Origin: Gemmatimonadaceae bacterium
GTDB lineage: Bacteria > Latescibacterota > UBA2968 > UBA8231
DNA length: 64,000 nt
Direction: 5' to 3'
Assembly (NCBI GenBank): GCA_026706075.1
Contig: JAPOZM010000007.1
Location: forward strand, 1-64,000
The notes beneath the pieces were generated by a model. The model saw only the letters and a list, made by a program, of their open reading frames with translations. It did no database searches and was not told where the DNA came from. Of this stretch, positions 3 to 39,622 are shown piece after piece. Made by a program: the position numbers and the translations under genes. Within the stretch, counting starts at the first letter, position 1; every line of letters starts with the position of its first letter.

Positions 3-269
3 GACGTGGTCTACGCCCTGCGCCCGGAGTTCGACGGCGCCCACGGCAAGCAGCTGCCCTCGGTCGCCTTCGGCATGGCCGGCCAGCACTCGACCTTCAT
101 CGCCGCCGGCGCCGGCGTGCGCGCCTCGGGCCAGCTGCAACGCCAGGTTCGCGTCATCGACGTGGCACCCACGATCTGCTACCTGACCGGGGCGCCGATG
201 CCGCGCAACGTCGAGGGCGGCGTGATCTACGAGGCGGTGAGGGAGCCGGACCTGCACCGGGCGGGGTGA
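3..269 (+). CDS. Alkaline phosphatase superfamily phosphodiesterase/nucleotide pyrophosphatase, C-terminal fragment (5' end outside window)
   Basis: Open from left edge; 'HGKQLPSVAFGMAG...VRVIDVAPTICYLTGAPMPRNVEGGVIYEA' is typical of type I phosphodiesterase/sulfatase-fold C-termini. Confidence 0.7.
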   Translation, partial: DVVYALRPEFDGAHGKQLPSVAFGMAGQHSTFIAAGAGVRASGQLQRQVRVIDVAPTICYLTGAPMPRNVEGGVIYEAVREPDLHRAG

Positions 270-324: not shown

Positions 325-352
325 TTGACAGTGCTCTTGAAGCATGTACCCT
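325..352 (+). promoter_or_regulatory. Sigma70-like promoter candidate TTGACA-N16-TACCCT
   Basis: Perfect -35 TTGACA at 325-330; TACCCT at 347-352; inside a convergent intergenic region, directly before the tandem hairpin element. Confidence 0.45.
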
Positions 353-541
353 CTCCATCGGGTTGAAACGGTTGGGATGGAGACGTACAGGTTGTCCCCC
401 GGGGCAGGAGGTTGCAGCCTCCTCGCCCCCACAGTCTGGATTTGGAGGAGCAGTCACGCTCCATCTTGGGTTAAAGGAATGGGATGGAGACTTACAGGCT
501 GCCCCCCGGGGGCAGGAGGTGACAGCCTCCTCGCCCCCACA
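353..541 (+). repeat. Two tandem copies (353-433 and 459-541) of an ~82-nt unit with two potential stem-loops each; candidate structured RNA
   Basis: Both copies: CTCCATC-N16/17-GATGGAG hairpin, then GGAGAC(G/T)TACAGG(T/C)TG(T/C)CCCCCGGGG(G)CAGGAGGT..CAGCCTCCTCGCCCCCACA, which folds GGGGcAGGAGG against CCTCCTcGCCCC. Confidence 0.7.
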
Positions 542-551
542 TGATGCGGCA

Positions 552-587
552 GATGCCCCCGCCCCTGGTCACCGGGTCGGGGGCATC
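552..587 (+). terminator. Strong hairpin, candidate terminator of the repeat RNA
   Basis: Perfect 10-bp inverted repeat GATGCCCCCG (552-561) / CGGGGGCATC (578-587), followed by GCTTTAG (weak U tract). Confidence 0.5.
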
Positions 588-703
588 GCTTTAGTACGGA
601 GAAGCGAACCTACCGAGGCCGGTCACAGAGTCAAGAAACCCTGTGCACTCGGCATGGTCGGTCAGCAGTCGATCCTCGAGGTCCTGCGATGGCCCCGGGC
701 GTG

Positions 704-738: not shown

Positions 739-1812
739 TCACTCCTCCAGCGCCGGCACGCCGTGAGCGGCCGCGAAACGCGGGTTCCAGGCCACGGCGC
801 CTGACACCACGTCCTCCAGCGCCAGGCGCTCCCCGTCGCGCTCGGCCGAGGCGTTGGCGCCCAACACCGCCGCCAGGCTGTTCAGGCTCGGCCCGTAGGG
901 GCTGAGAGTCGCAGACGGGTCGCCCGCCCGCACCGCGGCGACGAAGGCCTCGGCCTGCAGGCCGAAGGAGGCCCGCCCTTCGGCCTCCTCCTCCCAGACC
1001 GTCTCGCCGTTCTCCACCACCCTCGCCGCCGACCACTCGATCAGGGCGTCGTCGCAGACTACCAGCACCTCGCGCCGTCCCGCCTGCACGTTGGTGAGCA
1101 CCCGCGAGGTGGTGAAGCTGCCCGTGACCCCGGAGTCGAAGCGGTAGTTCACGTCGTAGGCGTGGGGCAGGTTCATCGGCTCGGGACCCATCCCCGGCTC
1201 GCGCCAGTGGTAGAAGGCGGAGACCTGGGCGATGTCGCCGAGCCAGTATCGCACCAGGTCGACCATGTGGATGGTGTTCTCCACGAAGGAGCCGCCGCAC
1301 TCCTCGTAGCGGCTGGTCCACCAGCGGATCGGACTTCCGCTGTAGAGCAGCTGCACCTGGACGTGGCGGGGGGTCAGGGACGCGAGGCGCTCGCGAACGA
1401 CCGCCGACGAAGGGCAGTAGCGGCTGTTGAACCCGACCTGGGAGACGACACCCGCCTTCTCGATGGCGGCGGCGAACTCCACGGCCTGGGCCAGGTCCAG
1501 GCTCACCGGCTTCTCCACGAAGAGGTGGAGGCCGCGCTCGGCGGCCAGCTTCACCTGGTCGGTGTGCAGGGTCGGCGGCAGGTTGACGTACACGGCGTCG
1601 AGGGCCTCGCGCTCCAGCATGCGTTCGTGATCGGTGTAGACCGCCCTGGCGCCGAAGGCGGCGGCCTGCTCCTTCCCGGTCTCCTCGTTGAGGTCGCAGA
1701 AGGCGGTGAATTCCGCCTCGCCGGCCTCCACCAGCGGCTGCAGGGCCGGCAGGTGGGCGCGCTGGGTGATGAACCCCACGCCGATGAATCCGAGTCTCAC
1801 GGGTGCGGCCAT
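739..1812 (-). CDS. Gfo/Idh/MocA family oxidoreductase
   Basis: 'VRLGFIGVGFITQRAHLPAL' Rossmann motif, 'LFVEKPVSLDLAQAVEF' EKP motif. Confidence 0.92.
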   Translation of the reverse strand: MAAPVRLGFIGVGFITQRAHLPALQPLVEAGEAEFTAFCDLNEETGKEQAAAFGARAVYTDHERMLEREALDAVYVNLPPTLHTDQVKLAAERGLHLFVEKPVSLDLAQAVEFAAAIEKAGVVSQVGFNSRYCPSSAVVRERLASLTPRHVQVQLLYSGSPIRWWTSRYEECGGSFVENTIHMVDLVRYWLGDIAQVSAFYHWREPGMGPEPMNLPHAYDVNYRFDSGVTGSFTTSRVLTNVQAGRREVLVVCDDALIEWSAARVVENGETVWEEEAEGRASFGLQAEAFVAAVRAGDPSATLSPYGPSLNSLAAVLGANASAERDGERLALEDVVSGAVAWNPRFAAAHGVPALEE

Positions 1813-37081: not shown

Positions 37082-37109
37082 TTGACCCCTTCTCCACGGT
37101 GCCTACCTT
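37082..37109 (+). promoter_or_regulatory. Promoter candidate TTGACC-N16-TACCTT upstream of the TPP riboswitch
   Basis: -35-like TTGACC 37082-37087, -10-like TACCTT 37104-37109; riboswitch P1 begins at 37123. Confidence 0.4.
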
Positions 37110-37122
37110 GAGCCTACGACAT

Positions 37123-37202
37123 CCGTTGGGGGTGGCCGGCTCTCCGGCCTGAGATCAGAACCCTTCGAACCTGACCTGGATCATGCCAGCGTAGGGAAAC
37201 GG
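37123..37202 (+). ncRNA. TPP riboswitch (THI element) aptamer
   Basis: CCGTTGGGGGTGGCC...GGCCTGAGATCAGAACCCTTCGAACCTGACCTGGATCATGCCAGCGTAGGGAAACGG contains the conserved GGGGT, CTGAGA, ACCCTT.GAACCTGA, CTGGAT.AT.CCAGCGTAGGGA blocks; P1 CCGTT/AACGG. Confidence 0.95.
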
Positions 37203-37214
37203 ACCAGCGCCATC

Positions 37215-37255: not shown

Positions 37256-39622
37256 ATGCGCATCCTACCTTCCGGCGCCGCTCCGGCGCTGATCGCCTTC
37301 CTCCTCACAGCTGCCACCGTCCCGGCGGAGACGCTGCGCGGCACCGTCGTCGACGCGTCGACCGGTGATCCCCTGCCGGGCGCCCATCTGACCCACGGAG
37401 ACCTGGTCGTCACCGCCGACGCCGACGGCCGCTTCGAGTTGTCCCTGGCGGCGGGGGACTCGGCCTTGGTCACCCACGTGGGCTACGGGCCTGCCGTCGT
37501 CCGCCCACGCCCGGGGGCGGTGCAGCCTGTCACCGTGCGGCTGCTGCCGGCGGCCGTGCCCGTGCCCGAGACCGTGGTCACCGGCGGGCTGATCGAGCAG
37601 GCCCTGGCCGAGGTCGCCTCCTCGGTGACCGTCCTCGACCGGGGCCGCCTGGCCGATTCGGGCGGCGACCACCTCCACGAGCTGATCCCCGCCGTGGCCA
37701 ACCTCAACTGGTCCGGCGGCACCTCCCGGCCTCGCTACTACCAGATCCGCGGGATCGGCGAGCGCAGCCACTACGCCGGCGAGGGGCCGCCCAGCTTCTC
37801 CGTGGGATTCGTCATGGACGACGTCGATCTGAGCGGTCTCGGCATGGCGGGTCTGCTCCACGACCTCGACCAGGCCGAGGTCTTCAAGGGCCCCCAGTCA
37901 ACCCTCTTCGGCCCCAACGCCATGGCCGGGCTGATCAACCTGAGGTCCACCGATCCCGCCCCGACCGCGGGCGGGGAGGCGACCCTGGCCGCCGGCAGCG
38001 ACGGACTCCTGCGCTACGCCGGGACCGTGAACCTCCCGGCCGGCGAGCGGTGGGCGGCGCGGGTCGGCTACAGCTCCGGGCGCACCAATGGGTTCCGCGA
38101 GAACCGGCACCTCGGGATCGACGACTCCAACGGCCGCGAGGAGACGCTGGCGCGGGCCAAGGTGGCCTACGAGGGGGACGGTCTGCGCCTCGTGGGCACG
38201 CTCTTCCGCGCCGACCTCGACAACGGCTACGACGCCTGGGCGCCGGACAACAACGAGGACCTGGCGACCTGGTCCGACAATCTGGGCAAGGACAGCCAGA
38301 CGACGGACGCCCTCTCCCTGCGGGCCCGGGCGCCCCTGCCGGGATCCGGCGCCGAGCTGGTCTCCATCACCTCCTTCAGTCGCACCGACCTGGAGCACAG
38401 CTACGACGGCGACTGGGGCAACGACGACTTCTGGAAGCAGGATCCCTACGGCTTCGATCCGGAGGAGCAGGGCTGGAGCTACGACTTCTTCGACCGCAAC
38501 CTGAGGGAGCGCAGCACCTTCACGCAGGAGATCCGGCTGCGGAGGGAAGATCCCGCCGGCGGGGGCGGCCTGGTGGCCGGCGCCTACCTGAAGTCGCTGG
38601 CCGAGGAGGACGATGCCGCCGGGTACCTCTTCGGCGGCGACGCCACCGACCTGCAGAGCCGCTTCGAGATCTCCGATCTCGCCTTCTACGGCCAGTACGG
38701 CCGCGCCCTGTCCGGCCGCTGGCACCTGACCCTCAACGGCCGGGTCGACCGAAACGCTACCTCGTACGAGGGCTCCACCAACAACGGCGCCGAACAGGTG
38801 GAGTTCGACGTGGCCCAGTGGCTGCCCGGCGGCAAGGCGGCCCTGGCGTACCGGCCGGCGCCGGACCGCAACCTCTACGCGGCGGTCTCCCGGGGTTTCC
38901 GCGCCGGCGGGGTCAACCAGCATCCCCGGCTGGCGTCCGCGAGCCGGCCCTTCGACCCGGAGTACGTCCTCAACCTGGAGGTGGGATACCGCGCCTCGGG
39001 TCCGCGGACGACCACGGCCCTCACCCTGTTCCACGCCCTGCGCTCCGACCAGCAGGTCGAGCTGTCGAGCCAGCAGGACCCGGGGGATCCCAACAGCTTC
39101 TTCTACTTCACCGCCAACGCCGTGACCGGGCGCAGCACCGGCGTGGAGTGGGAGCAGAGCCTCCGGCTCCGGCCGGACCTGCGCCTCACCGCCTCCCTCG
39201 GCCTGCTCGACACCTATGTCGACACCTACACCTTCCCCATCGGCGAAGGGGAGGAGGAGAGCCTGGGCGACCGCGCCGGCGCCCACGCCCCGCGCTACAC
39301 CTTCCGCCTGGGAGGCGAGTACCGCCATCCCTCGGGCCTGGGGGCGCGCTTGGCGCTGAGCGGCGCCGACCGGTTCTACTTCTCCGAGAGCCACGACCAG
39401 GAGTCGGAGCCCTACCAGCTGGTGGACGCCCAGCTCTCCTGGGACCGTGGGATCTGGTCGCTGCAACTGTGGGGGCGGAACCTGCTCGACGCGCGCTACG
39501 CGGTGCGGGGCTTCTTCTTCGGCCTGGAGCCGCCCGACTACGCCGACAAGCTCTACAAGAGCTACGGGGACCCGCGCCAGGTGGGCCTGCGGCTGACGGC
39601 GCGGCTGCCGGCGGGGGACTGA
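37256..39622 (+). CDS. TonB-dependent receptor, predicted thiamine (or precursor) outer-membrane transporter
   Basis: Signal peptide, 'GTVVDASTGDPLPGAHLTHGDL' regulatory-like domain, 'PETVVTGGLIEQ' TonB box region, plug 'EVFKGPQSTLFGPNAMAGLINLRS'; downstream of TPP riboswitch. Confidence 0.9.
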   Translation: MRILPSGAAPALIAFLLTAATVPAETLRGTVVDASTGDPLPGAHLTHGDLVVTADADGRFELSLAAGDSALVTHVGYGPAVVRPRPGAVQPVTVRLLPAAVPVPETVVTGGLIEQALAEVASSVTVLDRGRLADSGGDHLHELIPAVANLNWSGGTSRPRYYQIRGIGERSHYAGEGPPSFSVGFVMDDVDLSGLGMAGLLHDLDQAEVFKGPQSTLFGPNAMAGLINLRSTDPAPTAGGEATLAAGSDGLLRYAGTVNLPAGERWAARVGYSSGRTNGFRENRHLGIDDSNGREETLARAKVAYEGDGLRLVGTLFRADLDNGYDAWAPDNNEDLATWSDNLGKDSQTTDALSLRARAPLPGSGAELVSITSFSRTDLEHSYDGDWGNDDFWKQDPYGFDPEEQGWSYDFFDRNLRERSTFTQEIRLRREDPAGGGGLVAGAYLKSLAEEDDAAGYLFGGDATDLQSRFEISDLAFYGQYGRALSGRWHLTLNGRVDRNATSYEGSTNNGAEQVEFDVAQWLPGGKAALAYRPAPDRNLYAAVSRGFRAGGVNQHPRLASASRPFDPEYVLNLEVGYRASGPRTTTALTLFHALRSDQQVELSSQQDPGDPNSFFYFTANAVTGRSTGVEWEQSLRLRPDLRLTASLGLLDTYVDTYTFPIGEGEEESLGDRAGAHAPRYTFRLGGEYRHPSGLGARLALSGADRFYFSESHDQESEPYQLVDAQLSWDRGIWSLQLWGRNLLDARYAVRGFFFGLEPPDYADKLYKSYGDPRQVGLRLTARLPAGD

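Follow-up and report, generated by a model that had tools for sequence, protein, structure and literature searches.

The window, a 64,000-nucleotide stretch of DNA, begins with the first base of contig C119 in a genome of 5.6 Mb, 124 contigs and 69-70% GC. Near its left edge, two convergent genes are separated by 469 bases, their frames stopping at 269 on the plus strand and at 739 on the minus strand, and the gap between them holds a promoter-like site, two copies of a two-hairpin unit and a closing hairpin. The features are as follows.

3 to 269, plus strand: 3' end of a sulfatase/phosphodiesterase-like gene, truncated by the contig start.
325 to 330, plus strand: -35 hexamer TTGACA, assigned from sequence and class enrichment.
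347 to 352, plus strand: -10 hexamer TACCCT after a 16-nt spacer, sharing its TACC(C/T)T form with the site at 37082.
353 to 433, plus strand: unit copy 1, with the stem CTCCATC (353-359) / GATGGAG (376-382) and a GC-rich hairpin at 401-429.
357 to 361, plus strand: expected transcription start, placed by the usual 5-9 nt past a -10 hexamer.
459 to 541, plus strand: unit copy 2, with the stem CTCCATC (459-465) / GATGGAG (483-489) and a GC-rich hairpin at 508-538.
552 to 595, plus strand: closing hairpin with its GCTTTAGT tail, a perfect 10-bp stem (552-587) with a 16-nt loop.
739 to 1812, minus strand: convergent Gfo/Idh/MocA-family oxidoreductase gene, assigned from its frame and Pfam.
37118 to 37214, plus strand: TPP riboswitch (RF00059, 68.7 bits), followed by a gene at 37256-39622.

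An earlier note on this DNA had described much of this anatomy, and its letters and coordinates were borne out: both flanking genes do end here, TTGACA is followed 16 nt on by TACCCT, and the two conserved copies, each with CTCCATC...GATGGAG and a GC-rich hairpin, lie where they were placed.

The 88-aa fragment at 3-269 returned zero matches in a Pfam search, and we take it to be sulfatase/phosphodiesterase-like after a 587-aa relative in L253. Its orthologues in seven further genomes of this family (8 loci, L250-L257) have a zinc alcohol dehydrogenase gene directly 3', overlapping the stop codon. This neighbour is absent after 3-269, and the closest match elsewhere in the genome reaches 36% identity. 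The dehydrogenase has been lost here without a near duplicate anywhere else in this genome, which makes the region a junction specific to the lineage. The syntenic intergenic regions of relatives have nothing in common with the interval 270-738.

The two copies of the unit share 85.7% identity over 84 columns, with an E value of about 1e-18 within the region, so that, judged by this similarity, they represent a true tandem duplication. Their starts are spaced by about 107 bases, and the similarity continues weakly into the 5' flanks (ACAGT...AGCA.GT.C). Each copy contains a 7-bp stem, CTCCATC/GATGGAG, and a 12-bp stem with one bulged C, GGGGC-AGGAGGU / GCCUCCU-C-GCCCC. The tandem pair at 353-541 is the strongest direct repeat among 256 intergenic regions (100 kb, within the 1.2 Mb sampled from the genome); one of the five weaker direct repeats in these regions is a tRNA gene pair. 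Repeats shared between intergenic regions elsewhere in the genome are likewise partly tRNA genes. Long intergenic repeats linking neighbouring regions were also observed at G000:C124:82078-82782/83179-84336 and G000:C119:84326-85510/86485-87711 (333 nt, 91%; 167 nt, 92%).

On the plus strand, the segment 643-740 resembles copy 1 marginally (8 of 300 shuffles equal it) and could be what is left of a third copy, overlapping the Gfo/Idh gene at its end. Given a match of this marginal kind, no further remnants of the unit are claimed in the flanks.

The differences between the copies spare the stems. None of the 13 inter-copy differences falls in a stem, with 38 of 83 columns being stem columns (hypergeometric P 1.4e-4), a result in which conservation is partly built in by the definition of the stems from the same two copies. 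When the structure was circularly shifted, none of the 82 shifts spared the stems as well as the real placement. Covariation between the copies was nil, as no stem pair differs.

This pattern bears on an account in which an intergenic palindrome was recently duplicated at a gene-order rearrangement and is now a functionless, neutral relic. The loss of the dehydrogenase neighbour at a lineage-specific junction fits such a history, as does the lack of copies elsewhere in the genome or in relatives. Neutrality, however, predicts equal decay of stems and loops, whereas the 86% identical copies keep every stem base, and the orphan promoter described below is left without explanation; we regard this account as unlikely.

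The sequence differences also bear on the proposal of a small protein gene, for instance from ATG 376 to TGA 544 (55 codons), an open frame that does cover both copies. Two single-base indels put the copies out of frame with each other, a Shine-Dalgarno-like site is absent ahead of ATG 376, the third-position GC is just 0.71 where the genome as a whole has 69-70% GC, and the Pfam search was empty, making a coding role barely credible. No open frame accounts for the promoter.

The promoter was assessed against the genome's own sequence habits, using 1.2 Mb sampled as regions (L189-L248) with genes called by a home-made caller. The pattern TTGACA-N15-19-TANNNT occurs at 30 sites in this sample, 22 of which lie outside called genes, in DNA that makes up 9.8% of the total. 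Gaps of at least 40 bases contain 18 such sites, compared with 0.27 expected from dinucleotide shuffles, and 17 of these intergenic sites have a gene start ahead of them; the sole orphan in the 1.2 Mb is the site at 325-352, which provides the locus with a promoter of its own, as looked for in an independent small RNA gene. The same layout, TTGACC-N16-TACCTT at 37082, lies directly upstream of the RF00059 match, confirming the near-identical promoter arrangement that the earlier note had pointed to at the TPP riboswitch. Since the class is enriched, 17 of its 18 intergenic sites face genes and the same form precedes the riboswitch, the 325-352 site is very probably a real promoter, one serving no protein gene. 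This orphan promoter is the best evidence that RNA is produced at the locus.

A generic sigma-70 scan misses the 325-352 promoter because TACCCT fits the -10 consensus at three of six positions, which makes it a poor -10 element by the E. coli standard. The TTGACA-class promoters of this genome carry a TANNNT -10 element with a C-rich middle (TACCTT, TATCTT, TAGCTT), and a scan for TATAAT misses them.

A transcript from 325-352 would begin at about 357-361 and, ending after the closing hairpin, would be about 236 nt long, comprising one and a half units. With this start, the CTCCATC at 353-359 that opens the first stem would not, or hardly, be transcribed, and because initiation would occur inside or after this 5' arm, two complete units cannot share one RNA. 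Folding of 345-595 gave z = -3.5, as did folding of 360-595; the opposite strand of 360-595 folds about equally well (z -3.6), a palindrome effect, so that folding gives no preference for the plus strand.

The earlier note had pictured two copies that each fold as a two-hairpin unit; the minimum-energy structure predicted for the RNA as a whole is a different one. In that predicted fold, 401-429 pairs arm to arm with 508-538, forming one rod that encloses the copy-2 CTCCATC/GATGGAG hairpin, at -119.5 kcal/mol versus -115.9 kcal/mol when the pairing span is limited to 90 bases. As the energy gap between the two modelled folds is small, co-transcriptional folding could choose between the rod and separate hairpins. 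It is very unlikely, in our judgement, that the duplicated GC-rich hairpins act as a switch between separate and joint states, constituting a two-state regulatory RNA, driven by a promoter of its own, that would found a new structured class.

At the 3' end, the earlier note had described a perfect 10-bp stem followed by a short T stretch; the stem is there, and the T stretch amounts to merely TTT in GCTTTAGT. A generic terminator scan of the region returned no intrinsic terminator, and clear terminators in this genome carry at least four T's, with tails such as CTTTTTT, TTTTTTTG, TTTTC and GCTTTTCC. By its sequence, the 552-587 hairpin is a possible, weak terminator candidate in the plus direction, and its minus-strand tail, TGCCGCATC, makes it no terminator in the other direction.

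The position of these hairpins suggests another explanation, in which no independent RNA is made: they would be 3' UTR or termination palindromes of both convergent genes, enlarged in tandem, which would stop or slow polymerases and shield mRNA ends, the TTGACA being incidental. The locus does sit between two gene ends, both strands fold similarly, and among the 88 convergent regions of the genome 12 contain perfect GC-rich hairpins. Terminators of convergent genes are known to act on both strands (PMC5381666), giving such bidirectional elements a precedent. The locus resembles intrinsic terminators of convergent genes in its location and closing hairpin, and is unlike them in its two added duplicated two-hairpin units, orphan promoter and lack of a T-run. 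Neither strand has a T tail, and the closing hairpin, separated by 282 nt from the gene on its left and by 151 nt from that on its right, is distant for a simple gene-end terminator. The promoter site is, moreover, improbable by chance, arising in 12 of 5000 dinucleotide shuffles of 270-738. Gene-end palindromes, which with the neutral relic make up the main alternatives, are a possibility to be taken seriously, though a doubtful one.

A weak terminator also leaves room for a plus-strand transcript that passes the closing hairpin and regulates the convergent Gfo/Idh gene from its 3' end, this gene lying 387 nt ahead of the promoter. Antisense action of this sort appears highly improbable: a TTGACN-type promoter converging on Gfo/Idh was found in none of 17 family loci (up to 700 nt), and the repeats would be left unexplained.

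Among known RNA classes, no Rfam 15 family matched the region 200-800 at the gathering cut-off; this cmscan-type check agrees with the earlier note in placing the unit outside Rfam. The best sub-threshold match, among those with E up to 10, was Streptomyces-metK, which scored 17.6 bits (E 0.53) where its cut-off lies at 44.2. Sibling sRNAs, which arise by duplication, usually each have their own promoter and terminator; the locus shares with them its adjacent near-identical copies, and differs in that copy 2 is without a promoter-like site in the matching flank. A 6S RNA would likewise be a long rod and a promoter-driven RNA of 200 nt or more, whereas the rod here is made of duplicated hairpins. 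This class was set aside on finding no RF00013 match at the locus or genome-wide, although the model is insensitive beyond well-studied groups (it detected 6S in only 6 of 14 control genomes), so that the missing match carries little weight. A CsrA sponge of the CsrB/RsmZ type was also rejected, as the genome is without CsrA (PF02599), and GGA occurs 10 times compared with 7.1 in shuffled sequences (86 of 1000 reach the observed count).

The alphaproteobacterial sRNAs of the cuckoo, alpha-r14 (NfeR1) and CcsR types likewise contain multiple similar hairpins, and the unit shares with them a CCUCCU followed by a C-run. CcsR1-4 are four sRNAs released from one transcript (PMC10253847), while cuckoo and alpha-r14 are defined by a CCUCCUCCC anti-Shine-Dalgarno motif exposed in unpaired loops, with variable stems (PMC10746234, PMC3927594). 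In contrast to cuckoo-type RNAs, the CCUCCU of the unit sits in a stem, invariant stems are combined with variable loops, and there is no neighbouring DUF1127 gene. Membership of the cuckoo / alpha-r14 group was rejected because the CCUCCU at 418 and 526 is paired in the ensemble (unpaired probability 0.00-0.01).

Dispersal in the genome would have suggested a REP or BIME element, whose tandem GC-rich intergenic palindromes at gene ends look alike. REP elements are dispersed, whereas the unit occupies a single place: blastn of 320-595 against the genome returned this place only, and a covariance model built from the two copies recovered just those two. The unit is therefore not scattered in the genome, a point raised by the earlier note, and with only two tandem copies found by either method a REP/BIME element was rejected.

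Among 64 other genomes of the phylum, three of them from the same genus (a sample of 65 species genomes with the present one counted), BLAST and the covariance model found no credible copy. The compensatory changes that the earlier note hoped to find in related genomes accordingly had no homologue in which to appear. The same-genus genomes are distant (69-71% protein identity at the neighbouring gene) and incomplete, so that this absence is compatible with a fast-changing RNA. The best weak match, in L188 (25.9 bits), reads as coding DNA, hemC-like by inspection; that in L156 corresponds to NHPNPFNPM, a C-terminal sorting-domain motif of a secreted protein; and the remaining weak BLAST and covariance matches in relatives are chance-like. 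In 85,000 species genomes and in IMG/VR, a 17-nt pattern of the unit had unrelated matches only, those in L056 and L080 resembling coding DNA. A second hairpin pattern had zero matches in viral contigs, and the plasmids and phages searched showed no match beyond chance.

The reading we favour, with roughly an even chance of being correct, is that the locus encodes a small non-coding RNA specific to the lineage, about 236 nt long and driven by the 325-352 promoter. It builds on direct observations, namely the DNA anatomy, a promoter of defined class that faces no gene start, stems left unchanged between the copies and the absence of other copies. The small RNA gene proposed by the earlier note retains its promoter of the genome's own class and its spared stems, and loses the two full units and the proper T-run, and no homologue turned up in the 64 other genomes of the phylum.

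How such a gene would be transcribed, how its RNA would fold and how it might act are predicted as follows. RNA polymerase carrying the housekeeping sigma factor would initiate at about 357-361 from the 325-352 promoter, and the RNA would end at or just past the 552-587 hairpin. Of the two products of the tandem duplication, it would carry copy 2 in full and copy 1 from its middle onwards, with the GC-rich hairpins, separate or joined into a rod that encloses the copy-2 hairpin, forming a stable body. The G/A-rich single strands, at the 5' end (360-392) and in the linker (about 434-450), would be the likeliest contacts for other RNAs or a protein.

The locus is plausibly a new, if ordinary, small RNA gene, so far restricted to one genome, with no sign of membership in any known or widespread RNA family, and a single species-restricted candidate resolves by itself no long-standing question. 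If transcribed, it would be a small RNA gene from a thinly sampled phylum that was recognised without any homologue, through the genome's own promoter grammar and an orphan site. Establishing the enrichment of a promoter class and then collecting the sites that face no gene would offer a cheap way of listing small RNA candidates in any uncultured genome.
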